Below are positions 19,335 through 28,016 of a DNA stretch of 64,000 bases, piece after piece. The notes beneath the pieces are model-generated. The model was not told where the DNA came from and searched no databases. It saw only the letters and a list, made by a program, of their open reading frames with translations. Each line of letters starts with the position of its first letter. The stretch's first letter is position 1. Both the position numbers and the translations under genes were made by a program. Origin of the DNA: Candidatus Nitrosopumilus sediminis (GTDB taxonomy: Archaea; Thermoproteota; Nitrososphaeria; Nitrososphaerales; Nitrosopumilaceae); the NCBI RefSeq assembly GCF_000299395.1, contig NC_018656.1, positions 186,001 to 250,000 on the forward strand, given 5' to 3'.

Positions 19335-19348
19335 ATAAAGTAAGAGAG

Positions 19349-19422
19349 CGGGTCTAAAGGGATTCGGACCCTTGACAACCGGATTAAAAGTCCGGTGCGC
19401 TACCTGGCTGCGCCATAGACCC
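19349..19422 (-). tRNA. tRNA-Lys (anticodon TTT)
   Basis: Read on the minus strand: acceptor GGGTCTA/TAGACCC, D-arm GCGC-AGCCAGGTA-GCGC, anticodon stem CCGGA/TCCGG with loop CTTTTAA (anticodon TTT), T-arm AAGGG-TCCGAAT-CCCTT. Discriminator G; CCA not encoded. All four stems pair perfectly. Confidence 0.94.
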
Positions 19423-19518: not shown

Positions 19519-19596
19519 GCCCTTGTAGTATAGCCCGGTCTAGAATTCGGCCCTGTCACGGCTGAGACGCGTGTTCAAATCCCGCCGAGGGCGCCA
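19519..19596 (+). tRNA. tRNA-Asp (anticodon GTC), CCA encoded
   Basis: Acceptor GCCCTTG/CGAGGGC, anticodon stem CGGCC/GGCTG around CTGTCAC (anticodon GTC), T-loop TTCAAAT with a T-C mismatch in its stem. Discriminator G is followed by a genomic CCA (19594-19596), unlike most tRNAs in the window. Confidence 0.9.
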
Positions 19597-19726: not shown

Positions 19727-20545
19727 TTGTTGTCTGAAGAGAAAAAAGAATCTGAAATAGACACAAAATCTATTGATGATTCTATATCTGATAAACCCTC
19801 TTCAGATGAAACTGCAAAAGCAGCTGAAAAAACAATTGCAAAAGCTGAGACAGTAAAAGCTGAAGCTGAGATAGTGAAAGCTGAAGCTGAAAAAGTCAAA
19901 GCAAATGCAAAAAAAGATGATGAAGAAGCAAAAGCAGCTGAAGAAATACAAGCAGCTGAAGAAGCAATTGCTAAAGCAGAAGCAGCAGCTAAAGCTGTTG
20001 AAGATGCAGAATTTGCAGTCAAAGAAGCTCTTGCTAAAGCAGAAGCAGCTAAAGCAGAAGCAGAAGCCGCAGCAGAAGCAGAATACAAAGCAATTGCTGC
20101 TGAAGTAAAAGCTGAGGCTGCCGCAAAATCAGATTATACCTTTAAGAGACAAAGTGAAGAAATTTTCAGACGAGAAATGGGTGAGCCTGAATTTTGGTTA
20201 GATAAACAAGATCGTTTTCCACGACCTATTCTTTCAGCAGATGAACAAGAATCACTTACTAGAAAAGCAGAGATATTTCATGATCAGACTCCTGCATATG
20301 TCCCTCAAAATGTTCTTAGTCCAGAATACGCCGGTGTTTCAAATTATGAACGTGGAGTTGAATCCTTTTTAGAAGAAACTAAACAAAAACTTGAACAATT
20401 AAAAAATAATCCTGAGGCAACTGAAAAAGAAATTAAAGATGTAGAAAATGAAATTATTTATTTGGAATCATTGCATGAAAATTTCTATATCGGTATGAAT
20501 GTTTTTAGAACAGCTAAAGGCGGACGGGATAAGATTAAAGCATAA
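19727..20545 (+). CDS. Ala/Glu/Lys-rich coiled-coil protein, unknown
   Basis: 272 residues, TTG start. Residues about 25-140 are a low-complexity helix of repeats such as KAEAEKVKA and EAAAKAVEDAE, predicted to form a long coiled coil or single alpha-helix. The last 130 residues are of ordinary composition (RQSEEIFRREMGEPEFW, then SPEYAGVSNYERGVESF) and may be the functional domain. No family recognised. It ends 5 nt before the GluTR-like gene, so the two are probably cotranscribed. Confidence 0.7.
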   Translation: MLSEEKKESEIDTKSIDDSISDKPSSDETAKAAEKTIAKAETVKAEAEIVKAEAEKVKANAKKDDEEAKAAEEIQAAEEAIAKAEAAAKAVEDAEFAVKEALAKAEAAKAEAEAAAEAEYKAIAAEVKAEAAAKSDYTFKRQSEEIFRREMGEPEFWLDKQDRFPRPILSADEQESLTRKAEIFHDQTPAYVPQNVLSPEYAGVSNYERGVESFLEETKQKLEQLKNNPEATEKEIKDVENEIIYLESLHENFYIGMNVFRTAKGGRDKIKA

Positions 20546-20550
20546 TAGGT

Positions 20551-21636
20551 GTGAATGGTTTGAGTCAAATATCTTTTGATGTAATAAATGCGCGAGTAAC
20601 TTTCAAAAATGTTCCTATACATACAATATCAAAATTTGCTTTCAAAGATGTTCCTGCAGCATGTGCAGAATTTAAAAAAATACCTGGTGTTGAAGAATGT
20701 ATAATTATTCAAACAGCAACTAGAGTTGAAATATTTACTGTAAGTAATGTTGAAACTGATGATTCTCCAGATGCAAGAAGAGCAGAAGGTAAAGCTTTGG
20801 TATTGAATCAAATTCAAGATACTTGGGTATCTTTATCATCATTAGAACAAATTGATATTGATCACTTTGATCAAACTCTTGAAGTTTACAAAGGGGATGA
20901 TGTATACTTGCATCTTTTAAGATTGGCATCTGGATTAGATTCATTAGTCGTTGGATGGCAAAGTGTATTTGACGACATCGTTAAATCTGTAGCTGATGCA
21001 AAAAGTGCAGGTACATCTGGTAATATTCTCAATAAATTATTTGATAATGTGATTAGATTGGCTTCTCGAATGAGAGATACAACAGGTATTGCTAAAGATG
21101 TTGTCTCTTTAGGTGATGTTGCTGTAAAAGTAGTTGATGAAAAAGCTGGACTTGATTCTAAAAAGAAAGTATTGGTAATTGGTACTGGTGAACCTGCTGC
21201 CATGCTTGCAAAAACTTTGAGTAAAAAAGGAATTGTCTTTGATGTTACAAGTAGAAGTTTAGAACGTGCTACTGGTTTTTCAACAATTCTTGGCGGAAAT
21301 CCTGTAGATTTCAATGATGTATTGGCAGGATTTGATAAATATGATATTATTTTTGTTGCAACAACCTCTGATTATTTCTTAATCACATATGAAAGAATTA
21401 GATTAGTAATGGAAGAAAAGAAAAAAGGTACATTAGTTGTAGATTTATCTGATCCTAGAACTGTTGATGAAGGAATTACTGCACTTCCTGGAATTAAATT
21501 ATTATTCAGAGATCAAATTGCAGAAATTTTTGAAGAAAGCGTAAAAGCTAGAGTTGGAATTGTTCCAGCAGTAGAGAAAATTATTGAAAAAGAACTTCCA
21601 GTTTTATCTGCTAGAATGAAAAGACTAGATGCTTAA
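20551..21636 (+). CDS. Glutamyl-tRNA reductase-like protein, catalytic Cys replaced
   Basis: 361 residues aligning along its whole length with HemA: N-terminal catalytic domain, LHLLRLASGLDSLVVG near 112, a Rossmann domain with KVLVIGTGEPAAMLAKTL near 205, and a C-terminal dimerisation helix. Two hallmark sites differ. The canonical (S/T)TCNRTE motif with the nucleophilic Cys reads QTATRVE near 54, and the GExQIL motif after GLDSLVVG reads GWQSVF. A normal GluTR needs the Cys to form the glutamyl thioester, so this may be a paralogue with another role. Start is GTG at 20551. No other haem-synthesis genes lie nearby. Confidence 0.75.
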   Translation: MNGLSQISFDVINARVTFKNVPIHTISKFAFKDVPAACAEFKKIPGVEECIIIQTATRVEIFTVSNVETDDSPDARRAEGKALVLNQIQDTWVSLSSLEQIDIDHFDQTLEVYKGDDVYLHLLRLASGLDSLVVGWQSVFDDIVKSVADAKSAGTSGNILNKLFDNVIRLASRMRDTTGIAKDVVSLGDVAVKVVDEKAGLDSKKKVLVIGTGEPAAMLAKTLSKKGIVFDVTSRSLERATGFSTILGGNPVDFNDVLAGFDKYDIIFVATTSDYFLITYERIRLVMEEKKKGTLVVDLSDPRTVDEGITALPGIKLLFRDQIAEIFEESVKARVGIVPAVEKIIEKELPVLSARMKRLDA

Positions 21637-23778: not shown

Positions 23779-24894
23779 GTGAGTGGAAAAGATCAGTCTG
23801 TAATTAGTAAGGAAGCTTTGATGGGTACAAAACCTGGAAAACAGATTATGAAACAAGCATTGTTCAAATCTAAAGGTTACAAATTATTTAACAAGTATAA
23901 AGAAGAAACAGAAAATCAGTTTCCAAATTTTGCAGAAAGATTCGCAAAGGGATTACTAGATGAAATAAAATCTGACACGAACCCAAATGCCACTCAACAA
24001 GCTTTTGGTAATGAAGTGGGTTCTACTGAAATTATACTAAATGCATCTGAAATTGAGCCTATAAAATCAAAATTAGATAGTATTGAGGTAATGCAAGATA
24101 GAGTAAATCGGATTTTAAATTCAAATTTTGTTAAAATGACCTTTCCTGTTTTTAATGGATTATTTGATGCAGCAGCAGAATATTCTGGAAGAAATGATTC
24201 TCAATTAAAACAGGATATAGTTGAAGGCCATATTCTAGCAATTGATCTAAGTGAGCCTATGGATAGAATTGTAGATAAGGATGAAGATTTGGAGTTTCTT
24301 GATGATTACAAACTGATGAATCCATATATTTTGAAATTAGCTAGGGATAAAATTTCTAAAGGTGGTGAACAAGTTCTAAAAGAATTTGAAGCAGGATTTG
24401 AAGATGCAAGAGTTGGACAATATTTAGATGAAAAATTAAAATCAAAACCAACAGAAATTACTGAAGAAGAAATGACCTTGTCTTACAAAAAATATCGTGC
24501 AGTAATGGGAACTGCTGGAAGAAACATGGCTTTAGCAGAACGACCATTAGGTGAAATCTTCTATTTGGGTATGGCAAGAGCTGCTGAAGGAGTTGGATGT
24601 GGAAATGAAATTGAAGACTCTATTAAAAATGGATTTGTAAAAATACCTTCATGGCCACTTTACTATTCACTATTAGCAAACGATGTGAAAAAAGGGTTTG
24701 ATGTTACTTTAGAAAAAAGTAATTTGTATTTGCAGGATGCAAGACTTACACTTGAATTGCTACCTGATGATTTTTCACACAAAGAATTTTTGGAGTTTTT
24801 ATTTTTAACTGTAGAACATTACAATCAATATTGGTACAATAAATTACAAAAAGCCAACAAATGGTCAGAGTATCAATCTAAACTTCCCAAGTGA
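23779..24894 (+). CDS. Conserved-looking protein of unknown function, coupled to rfcL
   Basis: 371 residues, GTG start. No family recognised. The sequence is soluble, mostly helical and acidic, without signal peptide, membrane segment or cysteine cluster; a notable stretch is MGTAGRNMALAERPLGEIFYLGMARAAEG near 240. The stop overlaps the start of rfcL by 4 nt (GTGA), so translation is probably coupled. Context suggests a link to the clamp loader or DNA replication, but that is inference. Confidence 0.7.
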   Translation: MSGKDQSVISKEALMGTKPGKQIMKQALFKSKGYKLFNKYKEETENQFPNFAERFAKGLLDEIKSDTNPNATQQAFGNEVGSTEIILNASEIEPIKSKLDSIEVMQDRVNRILNSNFVKMTFPVFNGLFDAAAEYSGRNDSQLKQDIVEGHILAIDLSEPMDRIVDKDEDLEFLDDYKLMNPYILKLARDKISKGGEQVLKEFEAGFEDARVGQYLDEKLKSKPTEITEEEMTLSYKKYRAVMGTAGRNMALAERPLGEIFYLGMARAAEGVGCGNEIEDSIKNGFVKIPSWPLYYSLLANDVKKGFDVTLEKSNLYLQDARLTLELLPDDFSHKEFLEFLFLTVEHYNQYWYNKLQKANKWSEYQSKLPK

Positions 24895-26060
24895 TTGCCT
24901 TGATGTGGTCAGAAAAATACCGACCTCAGATAATTTCTGACATGGTGGGAAATGAAGAAGCACGAGCAGCAATTACTGAATGGTTTGTCAAATGGAAAAA
25001 AGGTACAAAGCCATTACTTTTAGTTGGTCCTCCTGGAATTGGAAAAACTACCATTGCATATCTTGTTGCCAAACAATTTGGATATGATATGATTGGATTA
25101 AACGCCAGTGATGTTAGAAGTAAATCTCGAATAAATGAAATTCTTACACCTGTTTTAGCAAATGTAAGTGTCATGGGAACTCCCATGATTTTTGTCGATG
25201 AAGTTGATGGAATTCATGGTCGTGGTGATTATGGAGGTGCATCCGCATTAGTGGATATTCTAAAGGAGCCTACAGTTCCAATTGTTCTTGCTGCAAACAA
25301 TGACACATCTGACAAAATGAAAAGTATCAAAAAAGTGGTAAAAACAATTCAATTCAAAAAAATTCCACCACGATTATTGAGAGTATACCTTGAAAATATT
25401 TTGAAAAAACAAAGTGCAAAACTAAGCCCTGGTTCAATTATCAAAGTCATTGATAAATCTAAAGGCGATATTCGTTCCATGATCAATCTAACACAATCTT
25501 TAGTAACTGGATTTAATCCTCAAACTGAAACTACTTTTGAAAACATTAACGTTGAAGATGGGGTAAATGCTTTCTTTAAAGCAAATTCAATTGAAGAAGC
25601 TAGAATTGTTCTGTATTCTATGCAAATTGATCCTAGAGAAAAAATTAATGCCTTTTATTCTAGTATTATAACAAGCGAATTAGATAATTCCATACTTGCA
25701 AAATATTTAGAAATTATATCTGAGGCTGACATGCTTTTTGGAAAAATTATGAAAACTCAGAATTGGAGGTTACTTCGATACCTAAATGACATTTTAATTA
25801 AATTATATCAAAATGATGACAGAGTTCGATACTCTCAATATAATTTATCTTGGCCTTTGCTAAATCGAATCAGATGGGATGGCGCAAAAATTAAATCTCT
25901 ATCATCTATTATGGCAAAAAAACTTCATCTGTCTTCTAGTTCTTTTGTAACATTATGTTTGCCATTCGTTTTATTATGTATAAAAAATAAAACTCTTGAA
26001 TTGGAATTAGAAGAAACTTTTGGCGATATTATTGAAAAGGAGATTGAGCTAATATCATGA
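24891..26060 (+). CDS. rfcL: Replication factor C large subunit
   Basis: 389-residue AAA+ protein. It begins with MWSEKYRP, has Walker A VGPPGIGKTT near 45 and Walker B VDEVDGIHGR near 102; SRC is absent, as is normal for the large subunit. The C-terminal 150 residues form the collar. It is shorter than many archaeal RfcL proteins and lacks the PIP-like basic tail. GTG 24891 overlaps the upstream stop; ATG 24903 (MWSEKYRP) is the alternative start. It overlaps the next gene by ATGA. Confidence 0.93.
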   Translation: MIALMWSEKYRPQIISDMVGNEEARAAITEWFVKWKKGTKPLLLVGPPGIGKTTIAYLVAKQFGYDMIGLNASDVRSKSRINEILTPVLANVSVMGTPMIFVDEVDGIHGRGDYGGASALVDILKEPTVPIVLAANNDTSDKMKSIKKVVKTIQFKKIPPRLLRVYLENILKKQSAKLSPGSIIKVIDKSKGDIRSMINLTQSLVTGFNPQTETTFENINVEDGVNAFFKANSIEEARIVLYSMQIDPREKINAFYSSIITSELDNSILAKYLEIISEADMLFGKIMKTQNWRLLRYLNDILIKLYQNDDRVRYSQYNLSWPLLNRIRWDGAKIKSLSSIMAKKLHLSSSSFVTLCLPFVLLCIKNKTLELELEETFGDIIEKEIELIS

Positions 26061-26368
26061 GCTGGAGAAAAATCCCTATGAAATTTCCTGGAACATGTAT
26101 TGTTTGTAATGAAAAAATATCTGTAAATGAGATTGGTCTTTGGGCAAAAGGACTTGGCGTAAAGCATGAAAAGTGTGCCCAAATAAATGAACTACAATGT
26201 ATTGTATGTGGAGGTCCGGCAGGTTGTCTTAAGTGTGAATTTCAGGAAAATTGTGATATTCCAAATGTCTCACAACTCTGTATTTGTAAGAAATGTAGTG
26301 ATGAAAAGGATACTTTTAGTTTATATCAAAAATCTGTTAATAAGAAATTTCCAATTCTTAACACTTGA
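26057..26368 (+). CDS. Cysteine-rich zinc-binding-type protein, unknown
   Basis: 103 residues with CIVCNEKIS near 14, HEKC near 36, CIVCGGPAGCLKCEF near 48, and C-x-C-x2-C (CICKKC) near 75. The spacing suggests two or three small zinc sites. No exact family was recognised. The start overlaps the rfcL stop (ATGA). The arrangement unknown 371-residue gene, rfcL, Cys-rich gene, with both joints 4-nt overlaps, suggests a functional unit. Confidence 0.7.
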   Translation: MSWRKIPMKFPGTCIVCNEKISVNEIGLWAKGLGVKHEKCAQINELQCIVCGGPAGCLKCEFQENCDIPNVSQLCICKKCSDEKDTFSLYQKSVNKKFPILNT

Positions 26369-26468: not shown

Positions 26469-28016
26469 GTGCATTCTGAAAAGATTGAAGGATATACTAA
26501 AAAGAATAATACAGCATTACAAGGTGGTGGCCAAGATCGAATCAAGGCTCAACACGATAAGGGAAAATTAACTGCCCGCGAAAGAATTGATCTTCTACTT
26601 GATGAGGGTACTTTTACTGAAATTGATCCATTAACCACACATCATTATCATGAATATGATATGCAGAAAAAGAAATTTTTCACTGATGGTGTAGTTGGTG
26701 GATATGGAAATGTAAATGGAAGACAAATCTTTGTTTTTGCATATGATTTCACTGTACTTGGTGGAACTCTGAGTCAGATGGGAGCTAAAAAAATTACAAA
26801 ACTAATGGATCATGCTGTTCAAACAGGATGTCCAATAATTGGTATAATGGATTCTGGTGGAGCTAGAATCCAAGAAGGAATCATGAGTCTTGATGGATTT
26901 GCAGATATCTTTTATCATAATCAATTGGCATCAGGTGTAATTCCACAAATCACTGCAAGCATTGGCCCATCTGCAGGTGGTTCTGTATACTCTCCTGCAA
27001 TGACCGACTTTGTAATTATGGTTGATAAAGTAGGAACTATGTTTGTTACAGGTCCTGATGTAGTCAAGACTGTATTGGGAGAAGAAATTTCATTTGATGA
27101 TCTTGGTGGAGCAATGACTCATGGATCAAAAAGTGGTGTTGCACATTTTGTTGCACAAAATGAATACGAATGCATGGATTATATCAAAAAACTAATTTCA
27201 TATTTGCCTCAAAATAATACTGAAGCACCACCAAAAATTCAAACTGATGATGATCCAAACAGAATGGATCATAATTTGATCAATATTATTCCAGAAAATC
27301 CTTTACAGCCATATGACATGAAAGAAATCATTAATTCAATTGTTGACAATCATGAATTCTTTGAAGTTCATGAACTGTTTGCACCAAACATTATTGTTGG
27401 TTATGGGAGAATGAATGGTAAAGTTGTTGGAATTGTTGCAAATCAACCAATTCATCTTGCAGGTGCACTTGATATTGATTCATCAAACAAAGCTGCACGT
27501 TTCATTAGATTCTGTGACTCATTTAATATTCCAATAATTACTCTAGTAGATACTCCTGGATACATGCCAGGTTCTAACCAAGAACATAATGGTATCATAA
27601 GACATGGCAGTAAGTTACTTTACGCATATTGTGAAGCAACTGTTCCAAGAATTACTCTGGTTATTGGAAAGGCATATGGTGGCGCATACATTGCAATGGG
27701 AAGTAAAAATCTTAGAACTGACATTAATTATGCATGGCCTACTGCAAGATGTGCTGTTCTAGGTGGAGAAGCTGCTGTGAAAATCATGTATAGAAAAGAT
27801 CTCAGTGAGGCTGATGATGCTGAAGCACTAAAGAAACAATTAATCGATGAATTTGCAGAAAAATTCGAAAATCCTTATGTTGCAGCATCTCACGGAACTG
27901 TAGATAATGTAATTGATCCTGCTGAAACAAGACCTATGTTAATTAAAGCACTTGAAATGCTCGAAAACAAAAGAGTAAAACAATTACCAAGAAAACATGG
28001 AAATATCAACCTGTGA
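26469..28016 (+). CDS. pccB: Acetyl-/propionyl-CoA carboxylase carboxyltransferase subunit
   Basis: 515-residue crotonase-fold carboxyltransferase. Typical sequences are KLTARERIDLLLDEGTF near 31, GARIQEGI near 131, and the acyl-CoA/biotin-binding loops GPSAGGSVYSPA near 160 and KAYGGAYIAMGSK near 395. It transfers carboxyl from biotin to acetyl- or propionyl-CoA. In Nitrososphaerota this bifunctional enzyme fixes bicarbonate in the 3-hydroxypropionate/4-hydroxybutyrate cycle (family knowledge). GTG start; TATA-like TAAATTAATATAGG about 25-35 nt upstream. First gene of a three-gene operon. Confidence 0.95.
   Translation: MHSEKIEGYTKKNNTALQGGGQDRIKAQHDKGKLTARERIDLLLDEGTFTEIDPLTTHHYHEYDMQKKKFFTDGVVGGYGNVNGRQIFVFAYDFTVLGGTLSQMGAKKITKLMDHAVQTGCPIIGIMDSGGARIQEGIMSLDGFADIFYHNQLASGVIPQITASIGPSAGGSVYSPAMTDFVIMVDKVGTMFVTGPDVVKTVLGEEISFDDLGGAMTHGSKSGVAHFVAQNEYECMDYIKKLISYLPQNNTEAPPKIQTDDDPNRMDHNLINIIPENPLQPYDMKEIINSIVDNHEFFEVHELFAPNIIVGYGRMNGKVVGIVANQPIHLAGALDIDSSNKAARFIRFCDSFNIPIITLVDTPGYMPGSNQEHNGIIRHGSKLLYAYCEATVPRITLVIGKAYGGAYIAMGSKNLRTDINYAWPTARCAVLGGEAAVKIMYRKDLSEADDAEALKKQLIDEFAEKFENPYVAASHGTVDNVIDPAETRPMLIKALEMLENKRVKQLPRKHGNINL

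Follow-up and report, generated by a model that had tools for sequence, protein, structure and literature searches.

A cysteine-less glutamyl-tRNA reductase paralogue and its coiled-coil partner in Nitrosopumilaceae

The window, that is, the whole 64,000-nucleotide stretch of Candidatus Nitrosopumilus sediminis DNA analysed here, encodes a paralogue of glutamyl-tRNA reductase (GluTR, or HemA), which we call GluTRp. As read from the sequences, it stems from a duplication, has lost the catalytic residues and has come under new constraint. Selection acts on it, and it keeps a fixed partner, a coiled-coil protein with which it co-occurs among genomes. On balance, we favour the reading that GluTRp is a dead, neofunctionalised GluTR that acts as a binding or regulatory subunit, the long form of a protein that bears a conserved helical hairpin (CORE) being its fixed partner. 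Marine ammonia-oxidising archaea rank with the most abundant archaea of the sea, and a pseudo-GluTR that is conserved, under selection, and tied to a fixed partner poses a testable question in the core metabolism of these archaea.

Identity of GluTRp and its former active site

The gene and its distinguishing positions are as follows.

20551-21636, forward strand: GluTRp, Cys-less GluTR paralogue, 361 aa (Pfam GlutR_N 6.3e-28, Shikimate_DH 3.5e-20; one clade nested in Nitrosopumilaceae HemA)
20713-20730, forward strand: TATRVE, the former nucleophile loop, with Ala56 (20716-20718) at the catalytic Cys position and Arg58 and Glu60 retained (alignment with TCNRIE of the genome's own canonical copy)
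20743-20808, forward strand, bounds approximate: insert of about 20 residues, peculiar to the paralogue, that follows the putatively dead active-site loop, with DxPDxRRxEGK (absent from all aligned canonical copies)
20956-20958, forward strand: Trp136 where GExQIL has Glu; most relatives have Lys (residue counts in 122 orthologues)
21370-21372, forward strand: Asp274 for a conserved Pro in the nucleotide-binding domain (Asp in 122/122)

By homology, translation probably begins at TTG 20560 and not at GTG 20551. Descent from the GluTR superfamily is evident from the PF05201 match (6.3e-28) and from the position of the clade within Nitrosopumilaceae HemA, and a Foldseek search of the PDB ranks GluTR entries first (1gpj, E 2.4e-24). 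By both sequence and fold, the best matches are to HemA (TIGR01035; Methanopyrus kandleri 1gpj; Arabidopsis GluTR 4n7r/5yjl), with which GluTRp shares the N-terminal GlutR_N fold, the Rossmann domain, the start of the spinal helix, and the substrate-loop QTxxRxE. Unlike HemA, however, it has neither the nucleophilic Cys nor the GExQ Glu, carries Asp274 in place of Pro and the insert of about 20 residues, and has mostly lost the dimerisation domain.

In a single alignment, the window copy reads IQTATRVE and VVGWQSVFDDI against IQTCNRIE and VLGEEQILGQI in the canonical copy of the same genome. The preliminary description, made from the window alone, had read the TCNRTE-type motif as TATRVE and the GE of GExQIL as GW, while allowing for a misalignment. 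Both readings are confirmed, as the same-genome alignment places the motif correctly and neither the Cys nor the Glu occurs in any of the 122 distinct orthologues. Its statement that the overall domains are intact stands for GlutR_N and Shikimate_DH, but not for GlutR_dimer (PF00745), which the Pfam scan finds missing from the window copy. Moreover, the TIGR01035 score of 195.9 lies below the NCBIfam cut-off of 209.55, and thus none of the tested marks of HemA competence (nucleophilic Cys, GExQIL Glu, PF00745, and a score above the TIGR01035 cut-off) is found in the window GluTRp.

Residue counts over the 122 distinct GluTRp sequences show the same pattern. Here, the Cys position is occupied by Ala (88), Ser (27), Gln (3), Gly (2), or Thr (2), and the GExQ Glu position by Lys (92), Trp (22), Asn (3), Arg (2), His (2), or Thr (1), while the Gln of this motif is mostly Glu (94) or Asp (24) and is left as Gln in 2. 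There is also no new conserved Cys in these sequences besides Cys50, which is shared with the canonical copy. GluTR catalysis follows an established thioester mechanism through the Cys (PMC7242693, PMC6399207), and this mechanism cannot run in GluTRp because that residue is missing. GluTR catalysis would therefore appear to be lost, with a residual ester mechanism formally open where Ser or Thr takes the Cys position (29/122).

This has a bearing on annotation. Two full-length Cys-less paralogues (L072:5983-7248 and L067:6060-7331) score 236.5 and 232.5 for TIGR01035, and since such scores exceed the cut-off, automatic annotation would name full-length GluTRp a glutamyl-tRNA reductase. The trap is that these copies pass the HemA equivalog cut-off though unable to form the thioester.

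A canonical HemA in the same genome

A second GluTR, canonical, with TCNR and 423 aa long, is encoded elsewhere in the same 1.69-Mb single-contig genome. It has all three domains (GlutR_dimer 5.4e-19, Pfam) and scores 340.9 for TIGR01035. Adjacent to it are hemB and two further genes, one of precorrin-2 dehydrogenase type and one of nirD/H type, while hemC, SUMT, and hemD are found at a distance of about 13-16 kb; these names were assigned by homology and from the Nitrosopumilus maritimus cluster, within which hemA is NMAR_0510 (PMC3004389). The search for a second, TCNR-bearing hemA that the preliminary description had proposed is thus positive, and of the two alternatives offered there, the canonical copy in its heme cluster supports a paralogue with another function and refutes, for this genome, a sole HemA with a changed mechanism. 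In the same genome, hemL is broken in two by a frame change within a poly-A run (L241:1380-2663; G000:C1, ~413.9-415.2 kb), which is either an assembly error or real.

With HemA present, GluTRp might regulate tetrapyrrole synthesis as an enzyme-derived decoy, binding canonical HemA, HemL, or Glu-tRNA and tuning ALA production. The GluTR fold is retained, and Gln54, Arg58, and Glu60 of the substrate loop are invariant in all 122 sequences. Furthermore, 11/122 have a long C-terminal extension, and GlutR_dimer is recognised in both of the long forms scanned. Against such a role, GluTRp lies outside the heme cluster at every locus examined, the dimerisation domain region is lost in 111/122, and many relatives with a full HemA have no GluTRp. 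We consider it unlikely, either as a rival to the binding or regulatory subunit reading or as a narrower version of it.

The partner protein and the CORE hairpin

Immediately upstream of GluTRp is the partner gene.

19727-20545, forward strand: partner gene, an Ala/Glu-rich coiled coil plus a conserved C-terminal domain (immediately precedes GluTRp in 156/156 loci)
20129-20542, forward strand: conserved domain at the C-terminus of the partner (model A1), comprising IFRREMGEPEF (20162-20194) followed by the CORE helical hairpin, which ends in GMNVFRTAKGGR (37-sequence alignment; hairpin pLDDT ~83)

Its probable start is TTG 19730, and the C-terminal domain has 21 invariant columns among the 37 aligned sequences. 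That a coiled-coil protein is the partner, as first proposed from the window, is borne out by synteny at all 156 loci and by co-occurrence. Among the loci with long flanks, 36/36 have the gene directly 5' of GluTRp, and a broader script places it within 200 bases of GluTRp in 155/156; at the one left, L062, the gene and the stop-to-stop frame of GluTRp overlap. The surrounding gene order varies, being argH-coil-GluTRp-FNR, rfcL-g26057-coil-GluTRp-FNR-carboxyltransferase, or neither.

As counted in related genomes, which are not independent events, the long partner form and GluTRp are both present in 129, both absent from 66, and discordant in 5, all of these last being less than 80% complete. 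In a profile search, every form found in genomes without GluTRp is short (90-198 aa from stop to stop) and lacks IFRREMGEPEF. The co-occurrence is limited to the long form. Searched against the PDB and Pfam, the partner gives only coiled-coil noise, and none of the solved structures matches it in sequence. The one other match, to Rpb5_C, is weak (best E 0.0077, 5/37 members) and was taken as chance.

The CORE itself is a helical hairpin of 70-100 aa, ending GMNVFRxAxGGR, which a second profile detects at 1e-11 to 1e-21 in most ammonia-oxidising families, with weak matches in family f45, and for which there is no convincing Pfam or PDB match. Its gene neighbourhood leads to a carboxylase, of which one gene is in the window.

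26469-28016, forward strand: acyl-CoA carboxylase carboxyltransferase beta gene (Carboxyl_trans 1.8e-189)

In short-form loci with flank, the acyl-CoA carboxylase beta gene and biotin carboxylase follow immediately on the CORE, and the same order is found in nearly all intact loci of the other ammonia-oxidising families, the exceptions being L216 and the f45 loci. In several genera, moreover, coil-GluTRp lies between g26057 and the carboxyltransferase gene. Small carboxylase-linked subunits are known as the acyl-CoA carboxylase epsilon, or PccX, type. Similarly, the CORE is a small helical protein whose gene adjoins carboxyltransferase genes, a likeness of adjacency only; it differs from the epsilon subunits in that the Pfam matches listed for it at E of 1 or less include none to their family. 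A functional link of CORE and GluTRp to the carboxylase is conceivable, though rather improbable as a rival to, or a narrower form of, the binding or regulatory subunit. The replication factor C large subunit belongs to the same conserved block, so that the linkage may be inertia, the L216 CORE is away from the carboxyltransferase gene, and three f45 genomes (G311, G355, and G378) have distant CORE-like proteins and no carboxyltransferase. Because CORE-like proteins occur without it, we treat the link as a lead and not a finding, and have dropped any firm claim of the CORE as a carboxylase subunit.

The nucleotide-binding domain and other conserved positions

Certain changes are peculiar to GluTRp. 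The Pro that Asp274 replaces is conserved in the canonical copies of Nitrosopumilaceae and in 10/11 others, and Gly171 is Ala or Ser in 121/122 GluTRp. In the insert, Asp74 and Arg76 are kept in 122/122, and His105, Asp107, and Gln108 are likewise invariant. Gly128 and Gly135 are invariant too. The Rossmann glycines Gly211 and Gly213 are retained in 122/122, whereas position 235, at which we take Arg to contact the NADPH 2'-phosphate, is Arg in 81, Lys in 28, Met in 10, and Gln in 3.

These positions bear on whether GluTRp might have changed its chemistry and become a Cys-independent NAD(P)H oxidoreductase for another substrate. The intact glycines and the new invariant Asp274, His105, and Asp107 would suit such an enzyme, but the relaxation of Arg235 in 41/122 argues against it, as does the presence of the sole conserved Cys in the canonical copy too, and we judge it quite unlikely.

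Origin, distribution, and selection

In a 71-row tree, made by a quick method that only partly settles the canonical branching, the 37 paralogues group together as a single clade (support 100) within Nitrosopumilaceae HemA, with a long stem of 0.57 changes per site. On this sequence evidence, GluTRp arose once, by HemA duplication in an ancestor within Nitrosopumilaceae. Two GluTR copies (PF05201) are found in 45/45 sampled genomes of the genus. GluTRp is also present in many other Nitrosopumilaceae genera and missing from others, and the named records that have it include Nitrosopumilus, Nitrosarchaeum, and Nitrosopelagicus. Among 151 genomes of the order, there is no second full copy outside Nitrosopumilaceae, and a search for viral copies found none. 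In family f10 of the same phylum, two genomes (G018 and G042; L097-L100) have two GluTR copies each, all with the Cys (TCNR or TCGR), and these were set aside as an unrelated duplication. The literature searched, which covered few subscription papers, yielded no description of the paralogue.

Between close GluTRp pairs, dN/dS computed pairwise (Nei-Gojobori, own script) is 0.03-0.15, and it reaches ~0.2 against the window copy, for which dN is 0.04-0.12 and dS 0.5-0.9. GluTRp is under strong purifying selection. Hence, while catalytic residues and one domain have been lost, a HemA copy that is decaying or misassembled and has no function can scarcely be credited and is refuted by the low dN/dS, the invariant residues, the occurrence throughout the genus, and the fixed partner.

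Structure prediction and proposed role

At 73 loci, the coil and GluTRp are in one frame, and natural read-through of such loci gave a fused alignment (A3). From this shallow input of 62 rows, AlphaFold2 returned a model (pTM 0.66), judged by pTM and pLDDT, in which pLDDT is mostly above 90 for GluTRp, ~83 for the CORE hairpin, and ~30-50 for the IFRREMGEPEF segment. This shallow read-through model has no confident coil-GluTRp contact, which counts against the proposed complex.

A comparable arrangement is that of Arabidopsis GluTR with the GluTR-binding protein and FLU (4n7r, 5che; PMC4726326). Both cases have a GluTR-fold protein and a non-catalytic partner, the pair here being a putative one. 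In GluTRp, however, it is GluTR itself that seems dead, and the partner is a helical hairpin plus coiled coil.

For GluTRp as a binding or regulatory subunit, we infer a loss of activity, a physical complex, a ligand, and a target, which might be ordered as follows. A HemA duplicate fixed in the Nitrosopumilaceae ancestor would have lost GluTR catalysis and gained a new role, with the N-terminal extension of CORE (coiled coil plus IFRREMGEPEF) evolving together with it. GluTRp may then use the retained Gln/Arg/Glu pocket, the Rossmann domain, or both to bind glutamate, Glu-tRNA, or NAD(P)(H), and join the long CORE protein in a complex, from which a signal would pass to whatever the CORE protein acts on. 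As a long shot, this lineage-specific complex of dead GluTR and extended CORE could read a nitrogen or redox signal (glutamate, Glu-tRNA, or NADPH) and, in the marine ammonia oxidisers, control the acyl-CoA carboxylase that serves carbon fixation by the 3HP/4HB cycle.

Other features of the surroundings

Between argH and the coiled-coil gene are tRNA-Lys (TTT; 19348-19422, reverse strand) and tRNA-Asp (GTC; 19519-19596, forward strand). Downstream, the reading frames at 23779-24894 (371 aa) and 26057-26368 (103 aa) have no Pfam match; across ammonia-oxidising archaea, the two share a conserved block with the replication factor C large subunit.
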